From: Bradyrhizobium sp. NFR13
Lineage (GTDB): Bacteria; Pseudomonadota; Alphaproteobacteria; Rhizobiales; Xanthobacteraceae
Assembly: GCF_900114605.1 (NCBI RefSeq)
Contig: NZ_FOTP01000001.1
Location: 620,001 to 684,000 of the forward strand
Reading direction: 5' to 3'
Length of the DNA: 64,000 nucleotides
In this document: one piece after another, positions 2,157-10,815 of the stretch
Numbering within the stretch: the first letter of the stretch is position 1
Layout: each line of letters begins with the position of its first letter
Notes under the pieces: generated by a model
The model's database searches: none
What the model was told of the DNA's origin: nothing
What the model saw: the letters and a program-made list of their open reading frames with translations, nothing else
Made by a program: the position numbers and the translations under genes

Positions 2157-3392
2157 TCAGACGGGCTTGAGCAGACTTGCAGCCGGTCTGATAAAAGTTC
2201 TGATCCCGTTCTTGAAACCGAACAGTGGCTGCGCGATCTCGCATACCGCCTCCGCCTTGGTCTCGCAATCGAGCACCACGAAATCAGCGGGATTGCCGAC
2301 CGCGATGTCGTAATGGGCCAGGTTGAGTAGTCTGGCCGATGCCGAGGTTACGAGATCGAGACACTCGGCGAGATCGTCGAGAGCGCCGACCTGCAGCACA
2401 TTGGCATAGAGATTGATCATGCGGATCAGCGAGACATCGCCGAACGGCGTGAATGGGTTCAGCACGTTGTTGGTGGAGATATTCGCGCTCACGCCCAGCG
2501 CGCGCAGCCTATGTGCCGACGTCACGCCGCGCGGCACGTTGTGATCGCTGTCACGTCCCGTGAGGAACAGGTCGGTCGCAGGCAAGACCGTGACCGCGAC
2601 GCCTGCATCGGCCAGTCGCTTTGCAGCCGCCGTGAAATCGGCGGGCGGCATCGCAGAGAGTTTCGTCGCATGGCCAATGGCCACACGACCGCCCCAGCCG
2701 GTGGCCTCTGTCATGCGGCAGACTTCTTGATAGTCGGAACGCGAGGGATCGAGATCGAAGTCGAGATGAAAATCGATATCGACGCCGAACTCCTGCGCAA
2801 TGCCGAAGATCCTGGCGATCTGGCCGTTGGAATCCTTGTCGATGTAAGGTACGCCGCCGATCAGATCGGCGCCCTCCCGCATCGCCTGCAGCAGCACGTC
2901 CTCGCAGCCGGGATCATCCAGCAGGCCCTCCTGCGGAAACACACAGAGCTGCAGATCGATCGCCCAGGCGTAGTCCTGCTTGAGTTTCTTCAGCGCGCGG
3001 AAACTGGTCAGGCCGATGCGCGGATCAACCTCCACATGGGTGCGCATCCGGTTGGTACCGTGCGTGATCGCCTTTTCGAGCGTCTGCGATGCGCGCGCAT
3101 AGACATCCTCTTCGGTGAAGTCGCGCTTGGCCCTGGCGACCTCGCCGATCACTTCGTCCAGCGTACCGTTCGCGCAATTGCAGCGGCCGAGCAGACAGGA
3201 CTTGTCGAGATGGATATGCGTCTCGACAAAACCCGGCACCAGCAGGCGTCCATGCAGGTTCTGCTCCGGTGCACCGTCTTTCGGCAGCCCGATCTCGATG
3301 GCCTCGAACCACCCGCCGCGAATGCCGATATCCACCGGGCCACCCGGCCGGTCGGCAATGCGCGCGTTGCGCAGGATGAGGTCGAAACTCAT
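2157..3392 (-). CDS. Cytosine-deaminase-like amidohydrolase with altered active site
   Basis: This 411-residue protein belongs to the amidohydrolase superfamily, close to cytosine deaminase and AtzC-type enzymes. The metal-binding HxH motif is ETHIHLDKS (H59, H61); the later histidines are H209 (FHLDF) and H241 (GHATKL). Aligned by eye to E. coli CodA, the catalytic Glu of HLDE is Phe212 and the metal-ligand Asp of HDDV is Asn308 (TNNV), so two normally essential acids are missing. It may hydrolyse a cyclic amide or ureido compound by a modified mechanism, or act on something else; simple cytosine deamination is unlikely. The ATG is preceded by a good GGAG site. It forms an operon with the amidase and faces a sigma-54-rich control region. 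Confidence 0.82.
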   Translation of the reverse strand: MSFDLILRNARIADRPGGPVDIGIRGGWFEAIEIGLPKDGAPEQNLHGRLLVPGFVETHIHLDKSCLLGRCNCANGTLDEVIGEVARAKRDFTEEDVYARASQTLEKAITHGTNRMRTHVEVDPRIGLTSFRALKKLKQDYAWAIDLQLCVFPQEGLLDDPGCEDVLLQAMREGADLIGGVPYIDKDSNGQIARIFGIAQEFGVDIDFHLDFDLDPSRSDYQEVCRMTEATGWGGRVAIGHATKLSAMPPADFTAAAKRLADAGVAVTVLPATDLFLTGRDSDHNVPRGVTSAHRLRALGVSANISTNNVLNPFTPFGDVSLIRMINLYANVLQVGALDDLAECLDLVTSASARLLNLAHYDIAVGNPADFVVLDCETKAEAVCEIAQPLFGFKNGIRTFIRPAASLLKPV

Positions 3393-3445
3393 GGAAGGCT
3401 CCTGGAGATGCCGCGGCGCGGCGCAGTGAAAGTCTATTCACGGGC

Positions 3446-3463
3446 AAGCAAGGCATATGCCAA
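3446..3463 (-). promoter_or_regulatory. Possible sigma-54 promoter for amidohydrolase-amidase operon
   Basis: On the minus strand the sequence TTGGCATATGCCTTGCT has GG and GC ten bases apart, matching the -24/-12 pattern except for T instead of C in TGGCAC. The predicted start point is about 40 bases upstream of the amidohydrolase ATG. The core is also a palindrome (GGCATATGCC), so it could instead be an operator. Confidence 0.5.
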
Positions 3464-3566
3464 GGCGCATGCGATCATCTATCAGTTCAAGCAATTGAAA
3501 ATACTTAAATATCGTCAAATCTCGCCTCTGAGAATGCTCAATATTCAGCCACCGTTCGCAAGAAAT

Positions 3567-3595
3567 GTATACGATCTGAACCTCAGGTCGAATAC
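3567..3595. promoter_or_regulatory. 29-bp inverted repeat, probable operator
   Basis: Arms GTATACGATCTGA and TCAGGTCGAATAC match at 11 of 13 positions around a 3-base spacer. It lies in the divergent control region just upstream of the plus-strand sigma-54-like promoter. GTAT/ATAC-ended dyads are typical of GntR-type (FCD) regulators, but no such regulator is encoded in this window, so the binding protein is unknown. Confidence 0.55.
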
Positions 3596-3599
3596 AATT

Positions 3600-3616
3600 C
3601 TGGCACCGAATTTGCT
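3600..3616 (+). promoter_or_regulatory. Sigma-54 (-24/-12) promoter for NTF2-like gene
   Basis: CTGGCACCGAATTTGCT matches the sigma-54 consensus YTGGCAC-N5-TTGCW, with exactly 10 bases between GG and GC. Transcription would start near 3627, leaving about 25 bases before the ATG at 3653. The upstream 100 bases are AT-rich, as expected where IHF bends DNA at such promoters. Confidence 0.75.
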
Positions 3617-3652
3617 ATGATCACGCCAGCATTTGTCTCCAGGAGAAGCCCG

Positions 3653-4084
3653 ATGTCGCAATCCCCCGCCGCGCTTGCGCCCGTCACCGACGAAACCGCC
3701 CAGGCCGCAGATCTCGTCGAGCGCTTTCTCGTCGCCTCCATGGTCCCGGACCCGGAGACCGCCGGCACCTTCATGTCCGCAGATGTCGCGATCACCTTCA
3801 CAGGCGGCCGTAAGTTCAAGCATCCGCGCGATGCGACCGCGTTCAACGCGATGCGCTACAAGTGGGTGAAGAAGAAGATGGAACGCACCGACGTGTCGCC
3901 GGGGAACGGCGAAACCATCGTCTACAATACCGGCACGCTTTATGGCGAATGGCATGACGGCACGGCGTTCGAAGGCAATCGCTATGTCGATCGCTTCGTC
4001 GTGCGGGATGGCAAGATCGTGAAAATGGATGTCTGGAACGACAGCGCCGAACGCATTCTCGTGCGCATGGATATCGAAGCGTAG
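3653..4084 (+). CDS. NTF2-like (SnoaL-type) small protein
   Basis: The 143-residue protein resembles the SnoaL/NTF2-like fold: a helical N-terminus (VTDETAQAADLVERF) followed by a curved sheet (ITFTGGRKF, TLYGEWHDGTAFEGNRYVDRFVVRDGKIV). Such proteins are small isomerases, dehydratases or ligand-binding accessories, and catalytic residues cannot be assigned here. The ATG at 3653 is chosen over an in-frame ATG at 3617 because an AGGAGA site lies just upstream and because 3617 would fall on or before the start point of the sigma-54-like promoter. It sits between the amidohydrolase operon and the ABC transporter operon and is probably an accessory to the same pathway. Confidence 0.75.
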   Translation: MSQSPAALAPVTDETAQAADLVERFLVASMVPDPETAGTFMSADVAITFTGGRKFKHPRDATAFNAMRYKWVKKKMERTDVSPGNGETIVYNTGTLYGEWHDGTAFEGNRYVDRFVVRDGKIVKMDVWNDSAERILVRMDIEA

Positions 4085-4140
4085 CACAAACACATCGGAT
4101 TGATCGCTGCGCGCGTCCAGCATCTCGACATGTCGACGAT

Positions 4141-4157
4141 CTGGCACCCGGCTTGCA
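4141..4157 (+). promoter_or_regulatory. Sigma-54 (-24/-12) promoter for the ABC transporter operon
   Basis: CTGGCACCCGGCTTGCA is a near-perfect sigma-54 site with 10 bases between GG and GC. The predicted start is near 4168, about 26 bases upstream of the binding-protein ATG. Together with the sites at 3446-3463 and 3600-3616 it makes three such sites within about 700 bases. Confidence 0.78.
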
Positions 4158-4193
4158 TACAGAATGCGAGCTGAGTGTAACCAGGGAACGTCG

Positions 4194-5348
4194 ATGTTGC
4201 AGGGATTATCCAGGACGATGATGACGGGCGCGGCGCTGCTGTGCCTGATCGGTTTTACCAAAACGGCCAGCGCCGATGCAGCCGCCTGTTCGATCCCGTT
4301 CGGCCTGACCACGCCACTGACGGGTAATCTTGCGCTGCTCGGCACCCAGGCGCGCAACGGCGCCGAATTCGCCGTCGACGAGATCAATGCTGCCGGCGGT
4401 ATTTCCGGCAAGAAGATCACGCTCACCACCGAAGACACCGGCGCCTCGTCGACCGACGCTCTGAATGCGATGAATCGCATCATCGAGGGCAAGCCGCTGG
4501 TCATCATGTCGTCGATGATCTCGCCTCACGTGTTCGCGCAGACTGAAAGCGTCAACAAGGCGGAGACGCCTTTCATTGTCGGCGCCACTAATGCCAAGGT
4601 CACCGCGCAGGGCTCGAAGTGGCTGTTCCGCACCCACGCTCATGACGGCCAACTTGCCGACCTGATCCCCGAATATCTCGTGAAGTCGCTGAAGAAGACC
4701 AAACCCGGCATTCTCGTCGTTGCGGACGATTACGGACTCGGCGCATCGAAGGGTATTCAGGCGGCGCTCGCCAAGCTCAATGTCACGCCGGTCGCCATGG
4801 CCTCCTATGCGCCGTCCGACAAGGACATGAGTGCGCAGCTGCTGGAGATCAAGGACAAGGGCGCAGACAGCCTGATCCTGTTCGGTCGTCCCTCGGACAT
4901 TACGCTGGTGCTGAAGCAGATGGGCGATCTCGGCATCAAGCTCACCACTATCGGCAATACCAGCATCGTCGCCCAGACCACGCTGAACAATCTCTCCGCG
5001 GCCGAAGCCGATGGCAACTATGCGATCGGCGGCATGATCCCGCAGACCTCGTCCGATCCGAAGATCCTGGATTGGGCAAAGCGCGTGCAGGACAAATACA
5101 AGGTGCCGGCCGACAACTTCACCGTCTCCTATTACGACTCGATCTACATGTTGAAGTCGATCATCGAGAAGGTCGGCTGCGACAAGCCGGCGATCCGCGA
5201 TGCCCTGGCCACCACCAAGGATTTCAAGGGCATGCTGATCTCCTACCAGGCCGACGCCAATGGCGATCTCACCCACACCCTCGGCATCTACCGCAACAAG
5301 GGCAAGACCCCGGAATTCACCGGACCGATCAAAGAGAGCGGGTTCTAA
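4194..5348 (+). CDS. LIV-type ABC transporter substrate-binding protein
   Basis: The 384-residue periplasmic receptor has a type I binding-protein fold of the branched-chain amino acid (LivK) family. A signal peptide spans residues 1-27 (cleavage near TASA-DA). IPFGLTTPLTGNLALLG, GAEFAVDEINAAGGISGKKI and the FTVSYYDSIYML region are family hallmarks. LIV-type receptors also bind amides, urea and aromatic acids, so the ligand is open. The ATG at 4194 follows an AGGG site; the in-frame ATG at 4164 would lie before the predicted sigma-54 start point. It is the first gene of a tight five-gene transporter operon. Confidence 0.9.
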   Translation: MLQGLSRTMMTGAALLCLIGFTKTASADAAACSIPFGLTTPLTGNLALLGTQARNGAEFAVDEINAAGGISGKKITLTTEDTGASSTDALNAMNRIIEGKPLVIMSSMISPHVFAQTESVNKAETPFIVGATNAKVTAQGSKWLFRTHAHDGQLADLIPEYLVKSLKKTKPGILVVADDYGLGASKGIQAALAKLNVTPVAMASYAPSDKDMSAQLLEIKDKGADSLILFGRPSDITLVLKQMGDLGIKLTTIGNTSIVAQTTLNNLSAAEADGNYAIGGMIPQTSSDPKILDWAKRVQDKYKVPADNFTVSYYDSIYMLKSIIEKVGCDKPAIRDALATTKDFKGMLISYQADANGDLTHTLGIYRNKGKTPEFTGPIKESGF

Positions 5349-5354
5349 GACTTC

Positions 5355-6221
5355 ATGGGCCAGCTCGTCGTCAACGGCCTGGCGCTCGGGAGCATCTACG
5401 CTCTCGTGGCGCTCGGTCTGCTGTTGATCTTCAACACCGTCCAGATCGTCAATTTTGCGCAGGGACAATTGTTGATGCTCGGTGCCTTCATCGGCATTTC
5501 AGGTGCGGTGACGCATGAGCTGCCGATGGCGCTGGCCTGGGCCTCTACCATGCTGGCGATGGCGCTGATCGGCATCGTCTTCATGGTGCTGGTCTACTTC
5601 CCCTTGCGCGGGCGACCCCCCTTCCTTGTGATCCTCACCACCATCGCGATGGGCATCGTGCTGGAGAACATCGCGGTGATCATCTGGGGGCCGCTGCCGG
5701 TGTCGCTGCCCTCGCCGGTACGCGGCCCGCCGCTGCGTTTTAGCGGTGTCGTCATTTCGATGCACCAGCTCTTCATCTTCTGCACGCTGGCGGTGATCCT
5801 GCTGCTGCAATATCTGATGCTCACCAAAACGCGCTTCGGCATCCTGATGCAGGCCACTGCGCAGGACCTGCACACCGCGCGACTCGTCGGCATTCCCGTC
5901 AACCGCACCATCGCCGTCGCCTTTGCCTTTGGCGCGATCCTGTCGGGCATCGCCGGCCTTCTGGTGGCGCCGATCTTCCTCGCCGAGCCGACCATGGGTG
6001 GCAGTCTCGGCCTGAAAGGCTTCGTCGTTAGTGTGATCGGCGGATTCGGCAATCTGCCCGGCGCCGTGATCGGCGGCCTGTTCCTCGGCCTGATCGAAAC
6101 CTTCGGCGCGCGCTACATCTCGTCGAACTTCCGCGACGCCTATGCCTTCATCGTGATGATTGCCGTGCTCGTGGCCTGGCCGCGCGGACTGTTCGGCGAG
6201 AAGAGCAGCGAGAAGGTATGA
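5355..6221 (+). CDS. livH: LIV-type ABC transporter permease (LivH)
   Basis: A 288-residue inner-membrane permease of the LivH family with about eight hydrophobic segments. It opens with GQLVVNGLALGSIYALVALGL and contains FAQGQLLMLGAF and the cytoplasmic coupling loop TAQDLHTARLVGI (about residues 165-180). It starts 6 bases after the binding-protein stop and overlaps the next permease by 4 bases, so translation is coupled. It forms the heterodimeric channel with LivM. Confidence 0.92.
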   Translation: MGQLVVNGLALGSIYALVALGLLLIFNTVQIVNFAQGQLLMLGAFIGISGAVTHELPMALAWASTMLAMALIGIVFMVLVYFPLRGRPPFLVILTTIAMGIVLENIAVIIWGPLPVSLPSPVRGPPLRFSGVVISMHQLFIFCTLAVILLLQYLMLTKTRFGILMQATAQDLHTARLVGIPVNRTIAVAFAFGAILSGIAGLLVAPIFLAEPTMGGSLGLKGFVVSVIGGFGNLPGAVIGGLFLGLIETFGARYISSNFRDAYAFIVMIAVLVAWPRGLFGEKSSEKV

Positions 6222-7156
6222 CAGTGAAACGCTGGCTTCCGCTCGCGCTTGGCGCCCTTGTCGCGCTGCTGGTCCCGGCAGTGACCCGTGACAACTACGT
6301 CATCCAGCTTCTCAACATTGCAGTCCTCAACGCCATCGTCGTGCTCGGTCTGAACTTCGCCACCGGCTGGGTCGGCCAAATCAATTTCGGCCAGGCGGCG
6401 TTCTACGGCCTCGGCGCCTATACCACCGGCATCGCCACCAAGGCCGGATTGCCGTGGATCATGACGCCGTTCCTGTCGGTAATCATCGTGATGACGGCGA
6501 GCCTCGTGCTCGGTCTGCCGACATTGCGGCTGCGCACCTATTACCTCGCAATGACCACGATCGGCTTCGGCGAGATCGTCCGGTTGATCATCGTGCATTG
6601 GGAGCCGGTGACGGGTGGCACCTCGGGCCTGCGTGCGATCCCGGGCATCAGCGTGCTCGGCATTGGCCCGCAGGGGCAGGTTCAGCATTATTATCTGCTG
6701 ATCGTCGTGCTTGGGCTGGCCGCGCTGGTCGCCGCGCGGATTCGGCAGTCGTCGCTTGGCCGCGCCATGATCGCCACCAAGGATTCAGAGATCGCCGCCG
6801 AACAAAGCGGCGTCGATACCACACGCACCAAGCTGATCGCGTTCATGATCGGCGCAGTCTATGCCGGCCTCGCGGGTTGTCTCTACGCCTCCTCGATCCG
6901 CTTCATCAGCCCGGACAGCTTCTCGGGCACCCAGGCCATCCTGCTGATGACCATGCTGATCGTCGGCGGCATGGGCTCGATCCCCGGCTGCATCATCGGA
7001 GCGGTGGGTCTGACCATATTGCCGGAGGCGCTTCGTTTCCTCGGGCAATGGTACCTCGTGCTTTACGGCCTTGGCGTCATCGCCGTGATCGTGCTGGCGC
7101 CGGGCGGCGTTGCCTCGCTCGCCTCGCGCCTGCCACGCTGGGCGGGTGCGCGATGA
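6218..7156 (+). CDS. livM: LIV-type ABC transporter permease (LivM)
   Basis: A 312-residue LivM-family inner-membrane permease. Typical motifs are LNFATGWVGQINFGQAAFYGLGAYT near residue 45, the ABC-contacting loop IATKDSEIAAEQSGV near residue 187, and the final segment GGMGSIPGCIIGA. It overlaps livH by 4 bases and livG by 4 bases (ATGA), which shows a single polycistronic message. It partners LivH to move the still unidentified solute. Confidence 0.92.
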   Translation: MTVKRWLPLALGALVALLVPAVTRDNYVIQLLNIAVLNAIVVLGLNFATGWVGQINFGQAAFYGLGAYTTGIATKAGLPWIMTPFLSVIIVMTASLVLGLPTLRLRTYYLAMTTIGFGEIVRLIIVHWEPVTGGTSGLRAIPGISVLGIGPQGQVQHYYLLIVVLGLAALVAARIRQSSLGRAMIATKDSEIAAEQSGVDTTRTKLIAFMIGAVYAGLAGCLYASSIRFISPDSFSGTQAILLMTMLIVGGMGSIPGCIIGAVGLTILPEALRFLGQWYLVLYGLGVIAVIVLAPGGVASLASRLPRWAGAR

Positions 7157-7932
7157 CGGATCAAGCGATCATCACCGCGCGCGGCGTGACGCGCCGTTTC
7201 GGCGGCCTTGTCGCGCTCGACGGCGTCGATCTCGACGTCCCCAAGGGGATCGTGCAGGCGATCATCGGCCCCAACGGCTCAGGCAAGACCACGCTGCTGA
7301 ATGCGCTGTCAGGTGCCTCACATGCTGATGTCGGTTCGATCCGCATCGACGGTAAGGAGATTTTCCGCCTCAGGCCCAACCGCATCGCGCGGCTCGGGCT
7401 GGCACGCACGTTCCAGAACATCCGGGTGTTTTCCAATCTCACAGTGCTGGAAAATGTGAAAGTCTCCGCTGCCTGCAACACGCCCATGTCGATGATCAAC
7501 ATCATGTTGTCGAACGCGACACAGCGGCAGCGCGAGGCGGGGATCGAGAGCACGGCGCGTGAGGCACTGGACATCGTCGGCCTCGCCGGGCGCGCGGACG
7601 ACCGTCCGACCCAACTGCCCTATGCGCAGCAGCGCTTACTGGAAATCGCACGCGCACTGGCGTCAAAACCCAGCGTGCTGCTACTGGACGAGCCCGCCGC
7701 CGGCATGAACATGACCGAGAGCATGACCCTGCTCGACACCATCGCGAAACTGAAGGGCAAAGGCATCACCGTGCTGCTGGTCGAACACAATGTGCGGCTG
7801 GTGATGGGGATCAGCGACCGCGTCGCAGTGCTCGACTTCGGCAAGAAGATTGCCGAGGGCGCGCCGTCCGAGGTGCAGCGCAACCCGCTGGTGATCGAGG
7901 CCTATCTCGGCAGGCGGCATCGCCATGCTTAA
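7153..7932 (+). CDS. livG: LIV-type ABC transporter ATPase (LivG)
   Basis: A 259-residue ABC ATPase. Walker A is GPNGSGKTT (residues 39-47), Walker B LLLDEPAAG, and the signature is the LivG-type PYAQQRLLEIARAL rather than LSGGQ. The ATG at 7153 overlaps the livM stop; although the frame is open far upstream, that extension lies inside livM and has no family match. It overlaps livF by 8 bases. It energises the transporter together with LivF. Confidence 0.92.
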   Translation: MTDQAIITARGVTRRFGGLVALDGVDLDVPKGIVQAIIGPNGSGKTTLLNALSGASHADVGSIRIDGKEIFRLRPNRIARLGLARTFQNIRVFSNLTVLENVKVSAACNTPMSMINIMLSNATQRQREAGIESTAREALDIVGLAGRADDRPTQLPYAQQRLLEIARALASKPSVLLLDEPAAGMNMTESMTLLDTIAKLKGKGITVLLVEHNVRLVMGISDRVAVLDFGKKIAEGAPSEVQRNPLVIEAYLGRRHRHA

Positions 7933-8635
7933 GATCGAGAACCTTCGCGTCTCCTACGGCCACATAGAAGTGCTGAAAGGCATCTCCCTAAGCGTCGAGA
8001 TGGGCGAGATCGTCGCCTTGATCGGCGGCAACGGCGCCGGCAAGACCACAACGCTCAGCACCATCTCCGGCCTGCTGCGACCGACATCCGGCACGATCTC
8101 GTGGAAAGGCGAAAACATTCATAGCACGGCCGTGGAGACCATTGTCGGGGCCGGCCTCGCACACTGCCCCGAAGGCCGTCGGATTTTTCCAGGCCTCACA
8201 GTCCGCGAAAACCTGATCACAGGGACAGCATCGCGCGCCTACAAGAAGGCCGAGATAGAGGACGACCTGGCGCTGGTATTCGAACTGTTTCCGCGGCTGA
8301 AAGAGCGCATCAAGCAAGGCGGGTGGTCGCTCTCCGGCGGCGAACAGCAGATGCTGGCGATCGGCCGCGCGCTAATGTCACGGCCGAGCCTTCTGATGCT
8401 GGATGAGCCGTCGCTGGGGCTCGCGCCCATCGTGATCGAGCAGGTATTCGACAAGATCGTCGAGCTAAACAAACGCACCGGGCTTGGCGTGTTGCTCGTG
8501 GAGCAGAATTCGGCCATGGCACTGGAAGTGGCGGCGCGGGCATTCGTGCTGGAGACCGGATCGATCACACTATCCGGCTCGGCCTCGGTGCTAGCCGATG
8601 ACCCGCGCATTCGCGAAGCCTATCTGGGCGGGTAG
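7925..8635 (+). CDS. livF: LIV-type ABC transporter ATPase (LivF)
   Basis: A 236-residue LivF-type ATPase: Walker A GGNGAGKTT near residue 37, signature LSGGEQQMLAIGRAL, Walker B LLMLDEPSLGLAP, and a C-terminus (DPRIREAYLGG) characteristic of the subfamily. It is the last gene of the operon. A 9-bp-stem hairpin follows immediately, between it and the convergent Bug receptor gene. Confidence 0.92.
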   Translation: MLKIENLRVSYGHIEVLKGISLSVEMGEIVALIGGNGAGKTTTLSTISGLLRPTSGTISWKGENIHSTAVETIVGAGLAHCPEGRRIFPGLTVRENLITGTASRAYKKAEIEDDLALVFELFPRLKERIKQGGWSLSGGEQQMLAIGRALMSRPSLLMLDEPSLGLAPIVIEQVFDKIVELNKRTGLGVLLVEQNSAMALEVAARAFVLETGSITLSGSASVLADDPRIREAYLGG

Positions 8636-8677: not shown

Positions 8678-9634
8678 TCACTTCACATTCTTCAGCAGCG
8701 CGATATTGGCGGCGACTTCCTTCGCCACGAGTTCGTCCATGGCCTTCGGCTCCATCGGCATCGGTTCGACGCCGATCTTCGTCAGCGCAGCCTGCATCTC
8801 CGGCTTGGCCAGCACCTTGAGGCCGGCATCGCGCATCTTGTCGACGATCTCGCGCGGCGTCTTCGACGGCACGAATACGCCGATCCAGCTGTTGCTGACG
8901 CCATCCTTCAGTCCGACCTCGGCAAGCGACGGCACATCGGGCAATTCCGGAGTCCGCTTTTCGGTGGAGACGACGAGCGCACGCACCTGCCCTTCCCGGA
9001 TCAGCGGCAAAGCCGTCGCCGCCGGGCAGAAGTAGAAATCGATACGGCCACCAAGGATGTCGGCGATCACTTCGGGCCCACCGCGATAAGGGATGTGCGT
9101 CGCCTCAAAGCCGCCGGCCATCCGGAATTTCTCGGCGCTGATATGCACGGCGCTGCCGATGCCGACGGAACCGAAATTGATCGACGACCCCTTCGCCTTC
9201 GCACCCTTCAGAAAATCATCCACGGTCTTCCAGGGACGCTCCTTCGGCACGATCATGATCTGCGGGCTTACCCCGATCATGATCACCGACGACAAGTCCT
9301 TCGACGTGTCGTAGGGCAGGCTCGCATTGATCGCGGGAGTGATCGTCAGCGCCGAGGAATGCGCCAGCACGCTGTAACCATCCGGCTCCGCCTTCGCGAC
9401 CGCCGCAGTGCCCACCGCGCCGCCGCCGCCAACGCGGTTCTCCACCACGATGGTCTGGCCGAGTTCAGGCCCGAGGCGCTCAAAGAAGATGCGGGGCACG
9501 ACGTCCGTCGCGCTGCCCGGCCCGAACGGGATGGTGGCCTTGATCAGCCGGGTCGGCCAGGTGGTGTCCGCATGCGCCGCCGTGCACAGCAACAGACCCG
9601 CAACAACGCCAGACCACCGCACAAACTTGTTCAT
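8678..9634 (-). CDS. Bug-family tripartite tricarboxylate transporter receptor 1
   Basis: A 318-residue periplasmic binding protein of the Bug/TctC family. A signal peptide (MNKFVRWSGVVAGLLLCTAAHA) precedes the mature start WPTRLIKATIPFGPGSATDVVPR. Family motifs are VVENRVGGGGAVGTAAVAKAEPDGY and HIPYRGGPEVIADILGGRIDF. The ATG at 9634 has a GGAG site eight bases upstream; a TTG at 9646 would place that site inside the coding region. Bug receptors bind carboxylates or related small acids for TctAB channels, but no tctA or tctB is in the window. It is clearly paralogous to the next gene. Confidence 0.88.
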   Translation of the reverse strand: MNKFVRWSGVVAGLLLCTAAHADTTWPTRLIKATIPFGPGSATDVVPRIFFERLGPELGQTIVVENRVGGGGAVGTAAVAKAEPDGYSVLAHSSALTITPAINASLPYDTSKDLSSVIMIGVSPQIMIVPKERPWKTVDDFLKGAKAKGSSINFGSVGIGSAVHISAEKFRMAGGFEATHIPYRGGPEVIADILGGRIDFYFCPAATALPLIREGQVRALVVSTEKRTPELPDVPSLAEVGLKDGVSNSWIGVFVPSKTPREIVDKMRDAGLKVLAKPEMQAALTKIGVEPMPMEPKAMDELVAKEVAANIALLKNVK

Positions 9635-9772
9635 ACCTTGCTCCAAATATACCCGCTGCTTTCAGCGGCGCCCGACAACCGGGTCCATAGAGGCAAACGA
9701 AGCAAGATCTGGACCGCTTGACGTCTCAAAAGGCGCGCCGGGTCCACCTTGGAAAGGCCCCCGGCACAATTG

Positions 9773-10735
9773 TTACTTGGCCGCTTCGCTCTTGAGTAGC
9801 ACCTTGTTGGCCGCGATTTCCTTGACGAGCAGCACATCCATCTCTGTCGACGTCATCGGCATCGGCTCGACGCCGAGCTTCTTGAGACTGGCCTGCGTCT
9901 CTGGTGCGCTCAACACCTTATTGCCGGCCGTGTAGAGCTTAGCAACGATCTCGGGCGGCGTCTTGGCTGGCACGAACACGCCGAACCAAATCGAGCTGTC
10001 AGCATCCTTGAGACCGGCATCGATCGGCGTCGGCACGTCCGGCAGATCGCGCACGCGGGTCGGCGTCGACACCACCAGTGCACGGACCTGGCCTTCGCGG
10101 ATCAGCGGCAATGCCGTGGCCAGCGGGCAGAAATAGAAATCAATGCGGCCGCCGATGATATCTGTGATGACTTCAGAGCCGCCGCGATACGGGATATGTG
10201 TGGCCTCGAAGCCGGCGGCGGCGCGGAATTTCTCAGAGCTGATATGCACGGCACTGCCGACGCCCACCGAGCCGTAATTGATCACGGTCCCCTTGGTCCT
10301 TGCTGCAGCCAGGAAATCCTGCACTGTCTTCCATGGGCGTTCATTCGGCACGATCATCACATTGGCCGCATAACCGATCATCACCACCGAGGACAGCTCC
10401 CTGGTGGTGTCGTAAGTGAGATTGGGGAAGATCGCAGGCGCAATGGAGATCGCATTGGTCTGCGACAACAGCGTGTAGCCATCCGGATCGCTTTTCGCGA
10501 CTGCACCCGTGCCGAGCGAGCCACCGGCGCCCACACGATTTTCAATCACGATCGGCTGTCCCAGCTCCGTACTCAGTCTTTCGAAAAAGAGACGCGGGAC
10601 CACGTCACCCGCACTGCCGGCGCCGAAAGGATTGACGGCCTTGATCGGCTTGGACGGCCAGCTGCTATCGGCCCGCGCCGCGCCAGACATCAACATCACG
10701 GCCAGCACGCACGACATTCGCCAGAACTTGTTCAT
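9773..10735 (-). CDS. Bug-family tripartite tricarboxylate transporter receptor 2
   Basis: A 320-residue Bug/TctC-family receptor, the tandem paralogue of the gene at 8678-9634. The two share MNKF starts, VPRxFFERL, the SVGxGSAVHIS block and LPLIREGQVRALVVST. The signal peptide ends near ARA-DSSWPSKP. The ATG at 10735 follows GGAGCGAGCG; an upstream in-frame start would extend it through sequence with no family match. The 138-base gap between the paralogues holds no gene. As its partner channel is absent locally, it probably feeds a TctAB encoded elsewhere or acts as a sensor. Confidence 0.88.
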   Translation of the reverse strand: MNKFWRMSCVLAVMLMSGAARADSSWPSKPIKAVNPFGAGSAGDVVPRLFFERLSTELGQPIVIENRVGAGGSLGTGAVAKSDPDGYTLLSQTNAISIAPAIFPNLTYDTTRELSSVVMIGYAANVMIVPNERPWKTVQDFLAAARTKGTVINYGSVGVGSAVHISSEKFRAAAGFEATHIPYRGGSEVITDIIGGRIDFYFCPLATALPLIREGQVRALVVSTPTRVRDLPDVPTPIDAGLKDADSSIWFGVFVPAKTPPEIVAKLYTAGNKVLSAPETQASLKKLGVEPMPMTSTEMDVLLVKEIAANKVLLKSEAAK

Positions 10736-10815
10736 CGCTCGCTCCAGTTGCGCCATTCGATGCGAATGGCAGCTCATGAAGGGAAGCAAAAGCAAGAACC
10801 GGACCGGCTGAGGGC

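Follow-up and report, generated by a model that had tools for sequence, protein, structure and literature searches.

The closest described design to the one considered here is that of the Pseudomonas hut (histidine utilization) genes, in which hutU has a sigma-54 promoter and is controlled by NtrC together with CbrB and by HutC. In that system NtrC activates from the sigma-54 promoter, and the footprint of HutC, a local repressor of the GntR family, overlaps the hutU sigma-54 site (PMC12977541 and PMC8871633, in excerpt). In the Rhizobiales, control of the uptake and hydrolysis of nitrogen compounds has been described as taxon-specific growth of the NtrC regulon (PMC5343134, in excerpt), and in Bradyrhizobium DOA9 the loss of rpoN lowers the expression of an amidase gene, of atzE, and of several branched-chain binding proteins (PMC13207237, in excerpt).

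The locus analysed lies within the window (the whole stretch of DNA under study, 64,000 nucleotides long), and the names originally given to its genes were borne out by profile matches. On the minus strand are an amidase (945–2123; PF01425, with NF006169 above its cut-off) and a cytosine-deaminase-like amidohydrolase (2157–3392; Amidohydro_3, below every NCBIfam cut-off), the nearest solved structures of the latter being cytosine deaminase and N-isopropylammelide amidohydrolase. This amidohydrolase is 92% identical to those of two Tardiphaga robiniae records and of Tardiphaga sp. P9-11, so that the window belongs to Tardiphaga or close to it. On the plus strand is a LIV-type ABC transporter, composed of a substrate-binding protein (4194–5348; PF13458, matching structures of Leu/Ile/Val-binding proteins) and of two LIV/urea-type permeases and two ATPases (5355–8635; PF02653 twice and PF00005 twice), all of which fall below the NCBIfam cut-offs shown for LIV and urea transporters. 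Directly behind the first plus-strand site, and unnamed in the original prediction, is a gene for a SnoaL-like protein (3653–4084, plus strand; SnoaL_2, below the Pfam cut-off), which matches PDB 9mua, a "Tautomerase", with an E value of 6e-23; a search of the open-licence literature for the entry code of that structure gave an unrelated match only. Further along, two adjoining genes for TctC-type binding proteins (PF03401) occupy the minus strand at 8678–9646 and 9773–10795.

Three sigma-54 promoter-like sites had been called by eye in this locus. Those on the plus strand, at 3601–3615 and 4142–4156, were found in the expected places and match TGGCAC-N5-TTGC exactly, and the one on the minus strand (3448–3462, TGGCATATGCCTTGC) has the single mismatch attributed to it. 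All three carry the GG (-24) and GC (-12) elements with the exact spacing. If transcription begins about 12 bases past the GC, the start points would be near 3627, 4168, and 3436, leaving about 26, 26, and 44 bases to the start codons at 3653, 4194, and 3392, respectively, in agreement with the gap of about 25 bases claimed for both plus-strand sites. The claim that the window holds no other such match is correct for exact matches, but five further matches were found when one mismatch was allowed. The resulting total of eight compares with 5.6 expected, and 20 of 100 shuffles of the window also reached eight; because one-mismatch matches are not in excess, the sequence by itself does not make the minus-strand site significant. 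In the entire genome (6.22 Mb in 17 contigs), which has one rpoN gene (a single PF04963 match, with the AID, CBD, and DBD domains), the exact pattern occurs 34 times, against 12 for the reversed pattern, and among 34 randomly placed sites 0.05 co-oriented pairs no more than 541 bp apart would be expected. An exact match alone does not make a promoter, since 15 of the 30 exact genomic sites that could be placed fall inside rough gene calls.

Comparison with relatives was more informative, and was based on 248 genomes of the family, with 30 amidohydrolase loci (187 genomes had a match) and 52 SnoaL loci, the latter comprising every match that scored 184 bits or more, with six weaker ones (83 bits or less) left out. 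Taken as counts and not as probabilities, because the loci are related and the shuffles preserve only single-base composition, matches within one mismatch to the minus site were present in 32 of the 52 loci (17 exact; 0.31 and 0.02 expected) and to the plus site before the SnoaL gene in 15 (13 exact; 0.16 and 0.01 expected), with none on the opposite strand in either case, while at two mismatches the numbers were 34 for the minus site (3.8 in shuffled sequences, seven on the opposite strand) and 23 for the plus site (2.5 and five). Among the minus-site matches the spacer takes 16 different forms, one contributed by a second site in locus L082, and selection on a sigma-54 promoter leaves just such a pattern, with the core fixed and the spacers varied. 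This genome and its four closest relatives retain both divergent sites, the minus site being exact in all four relatives, and 19 of 20 core columns are invariant, compared with 130 of the remaining 234 columns (p 0.0002). Across ten loci of the same layout, these five included, the invariant columns for the minus site are 8/10 in the core, 0/5 in the spacer, and 49/254 elsewhere (p 0.0001). The other five of the ten retain the GG and GC of the minus site, with the SnoaL site decayed, so that half of the ten loci have lost the plus site.

The pair also recurs where the neighboring gene is another one. In 11 loci from Rhodopseudomonas and Tardiphaga-like genomes (L077, L078, L080, L082, L084–L090), the gene placed divergently to SnoaL encodes a different LIV-type binding protein, and within one mismatch the minus site is found in all 11 and the plus site in 10. 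The Bradyrhizobium-type loci L199, L200, and L202–L214 yielded no match within one mismatch to either site. Chance matches to a short consensus would account for the fact that one-mismatch sites are no commoner in the window than expected, and for the exact genomic sites lying inside rough gene calls; they would not account for the recurrence of the divergent sites in position, for the lack of matches on the opposite strand, or for the agreement of these sites with the NtrC-type and operator sites described below, and we consider this explanation very improbable. Positional conservation before genes across relatives thus holds for the divergent pair, and these two of the three suspected promoters look real from the alignments. 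Judged in the same way, the minus-strand site with one change, which serves as the putative promoter of the amidohydrolase-amidase operon, is the most deeply conserved; the site at 3601–3615 would be the promoter of the SnoaL-like gene.

Five strong sigma-54 activator domains were found among eight matches in the genome: NtrC, FlbD, NtrX, an AtoC/NtrC-like protein (L034), and a PAS-type protein (L031). The first three all exceed their NCBIfam cut-offs; the GAFTGA loop is present in NtrC, L034, and L031, and NtrX is without it. The enteric NtrC consensus TGCACC-N5-GGTGCA matched nothing useful, and a hand-made dyad score was dropped, as it gave 8.06 against a mean of 7.12 in shuffles. Since the enteric consensus was of no use, and in order to assume no motif, one was learned from the upstream regions of glnK, which were obtained for 30 of the 61 genomes searched, the gene start being readable in 28. 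All 28 readable regions have a TGGCAC promoter with one mismatch allowed, and a palindromic motif search returned TGCYYA-N5-TRRGCA, which has in common with the E. coli NtrC box the 17-bp outline TGC-N11-GCA (PMC8743547, in excerpt). We infer that sites of this motif are NtrC sites, because glnK is a core target of NtrC (PMC5343134, in excerpt). Upstream of glnK (L248–L276) such dyads are repeated across the family, most of them at around -100, -121, and -160 relative to the sigma-54 site. Elsewhere in this genome, two other exact sigma-54 sites have strong upstream NtrC-type matches: L016 (G000:C8:855287-855301; 15.8 bits) and L168 (G000:C16:322207-322221; 15.0 bits). The 440-aa frame behind the L016 site looks NirB-like.

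In the window, the best match to the glnK motif is the dyad TGCTCAATATTCAGCCA at 3535–3551, a candidate activator site shared by the two promoters between which it sits. With 13.8 bits it is the only match of at least 12, and four reach 10. It begins 66 bases before the plus-strand site, and about 107 bases separate its center from the start predicted on the minus strand. Among 34 homologous intergenic regions, which had been selected for having the minus site, 32 contain a match of at least 8 bits (2.0 expected) and 19 one of at least 10 bits (0.7 expected). In 5 of these 32 (L081, L082, L083, L091, and L196) the best match is at 104–125, on or near operator repeats, and low scores were obtained for the close relative L072 (5.0) and for L086 (6.0). 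An alternative is that the divergent promoters are sigma-54 dependent but respond through L034 or L031 to a specific signal instead of nitrogen status. Both of these proteins exist in the genome and have GAFTGA; against their involvement, the central dyad matches the motif of glnK, which is a standard NtrC target (PMC5343134, in excerpt), and a motif check flagged no enhancer-binding protein gene in the flanks of eight relatives, as would fit a global activator. We therefore regard this alternative as unlikely, and NtrC as the better candidate.

The alignments also revealed a conserved element, G[YA]ATRCRAT, beside the -24 boxes. Its three copies, all on the plus strand, are GCATGCGAT at 3467–3475, beside the minus-strand promoter, GTATACGAT at 3567–3575, and GAATACAAT at 3590–3598, which abuts the -24 box of the SnoaL promoter. 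Being placed beside both divergent promoters, these operator-like repeats point to a GntR/FCD regulator. The pattern is present in 41 of the 52 SnoaL upstream regions (0.77 expected). In Bradyrhizobium Tv2a-2 a GntR gene adjoins the SnoaL gene, and its product is 62% identical to the best of the 26 FCD loci of the present genome, the next being 33% identical. With orthology taken from one-way best matches, and using the best strong match per genome, the GntR gene is convergent to SnoaL and within 300 bp of it in 31 of 52 genomes, about 4.4 kb away in two, and elsewhere in 13, including this one (G000:C6:1581045-1581743, 0.96 Mb from the window locus); six have no strong match. Operators accompany 39 of the 46 loci with a strong GntR match, versus 2 of the 6 without (p 0.014). 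In Tv2a-2 (L118:11312-13013), a carbon-nitrogen hydrolase and an Asp/Glu/hydantoin racemase adjoin the amidohydrolase, which hints at a cyclic amide or imide as the possible substrate.

The nitrogen-limitation reading through RpoN and NtrC that had been offered for the locus is supported by comparison, as rpoN, NtrC, and a site of the glnK motif are all present and the divergent sites recur in position, but it was incomplete, having missed the GntR-type operators. Alternatively, the SnoaL gene might be transcribed from a sigma-70 promoter of the extended -10 type (TGCTATGAT, 3613–3621) repressed by GntR, the sigma-54 match being secondary; the -12 box of the SnoaL promoter does overlap this extended -10-like stretch, and five relatives without the -24 box retain, by eye, a TGnTA-like stretch, which may represent a switch to sigma-70. 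However, nothing passed a sigma-70 promoter scan of 3390–4200, the Rhodopseudomonas relatives have TGGCAC-N5-TTGC exactly and have not kept TATGAT, and such a promoter would leave that of the minus strand untouched, so we find it quite unlikely and retain sigma-54 for both genes.

At the third site, 4142–4156, the match is exact also in three relatives with the same layout (L041, L042, and L044) and is absent from L043, where other DNA follows SnoaL. All of its core columns are invariant, as are 69 of 93 neighboring columns (p 0.06, from four close genomes only). Comparison supports the proposed nitrogen control for the divergent pair, whereas the 290 bp upstream of this third site contain no NtrC-type site (best 4.9 bits). 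It is probably the sigma-54 promoter from which the LIV-type transporter operon is transcribed, although for this site alone a chance match is possible. Between the LIV-type binding protein of this locus and the one encoded divergently from SnoaL in a Rhodopseudomonas relative, identity is 24%, which makes the transporter look like a later arrival that came with, or gained, its own sigma-54 promoter.

The same elements recur at a second locus of this genome, where the GntR/FCD gene is divergent from an operon for an NMT1-type ABC transporter with a second amidohydrolase (L165:4753-9747, G000:C6). The sigma-54 site of this operon is an exact match, and a GTGCATGCAATT operator overlaps its -12 box; the locus also contains GTGCATGCAAT operators and an NtrC-type dyad. 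The latter, at 12.5 bits the best of 19 kb, has the same 66-bp offset as in the window. Among relatives, a sigma-54 site at this locus within one mismatch is present in 22 of 29 readable loci (L224 being without a reading frame). An NtrC-type match apart from the operator was found in the nine nearest genomes only (11.1–12.5 bits); in most of the more distant relatives the best match coincides with the operator repeat, and for this reason NtrC control of the second locus is supported in near relatives only. A single stretch of Bradyrhizobium sacchari (L124) carries, judging by eye from the N-terminal ends of the proteins, both a gene for an NMT1-type binding protein and the SnoaL-amidohydrolase pair.

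Given that the sites are present and conserved, that the genome encodes the regulators, and that GntR and SnoaL genes often lie together, we propose that the divergent region is activated by NtrC and sigma-54 under nitrogen limitation and gated by GntR repression, a reading to which we assign a probability of about 0.72. The 260-bp region 3393–3652 would then be a two-sided control element with three inputs. Sigma-54 RNA polymerase would wait at two opposed -24/-12 promoters, one for the amidohydrolase-amidase operon and the other for the SnoaL-like gene; NtrC, once made active by nitrogen limitation, would bind the 17-bp dyad at 3535–3551 and turn on both; and the GntR/FCD regulator would bind the G[YA]ATRCRAT repeats beside the -24 boxes and block the promoters until released by an inducer, which may be the substrate or an intermediate. 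At 4142 the LIV-type transporter would have a separate sigma-54 promoter, which might be activated remotely from the same dyad, and the second operon, with its NMT1-type transporter and amidohydrolase, would belong to the same regulon.

More broadly, these loci might form an undescribed regulon of the family, in which an FCD-type GntR regulator acts on NtrC-activated sigma-54 promoters so that both nitrogen hunger and substrate are needed, and in which two loci far apart, with two amidohydrolases and ABC transporters of two unrelated kinds, serve one nitrogen compound, the LIV transporter having newly joined, in the lineage of this window, with a sigma-54 promoter of its own or having gained one; we give this wider proposal an even chance. 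Among the matches listed, no description of the locus, its regulator, and its gene content was found in excerpts of the open-licence literature. A promoter call made by eye becomes a testable three-input regulon, for which a gene for the candidate repressor and another operon as second target are named, and the family gains an NtrC-type motif applicable to other loci. The amidohydrolase/SnoaL/ABC module is widely kept, and its predicted regulation says that the substrate is probably a nitrogen source, which provides a handle for finding it.

The kind of control proposed, sigma-54 and NtrC combined with a GntR-family repressor, is already known. With respect to the NtrC regulon of Rhizobiales, which comprises glnK-amtB and urea, nitrate, and allophanate genes, the common motif stands at glnK; the amidohydrolase/SnoaL/LIV locus is not named in the excerpts of that account (PMC5343134), and NtrC binding here is predicted. 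The effect of rpoN in DOA9 is consistent with the present locus, whether or not the same genes are concerned, and the main text of that study, in excerpt, does not mention an amidohydrolase or GntR (PMC13207237). With hut, the locus would share a sigma-54 promoter, activation by NtrC, and a local repressor of the GntR family, here predicted. It differs in that the regulator has an FCD domain and scores 31.8 bits with the HutC model, against a cut-off of 220, in that the genes and the substrate are others, and in that the regulator gene of this genome lies elsewhere. Since its regulator is not HutC, the locus would work like hut control without being a member of it.
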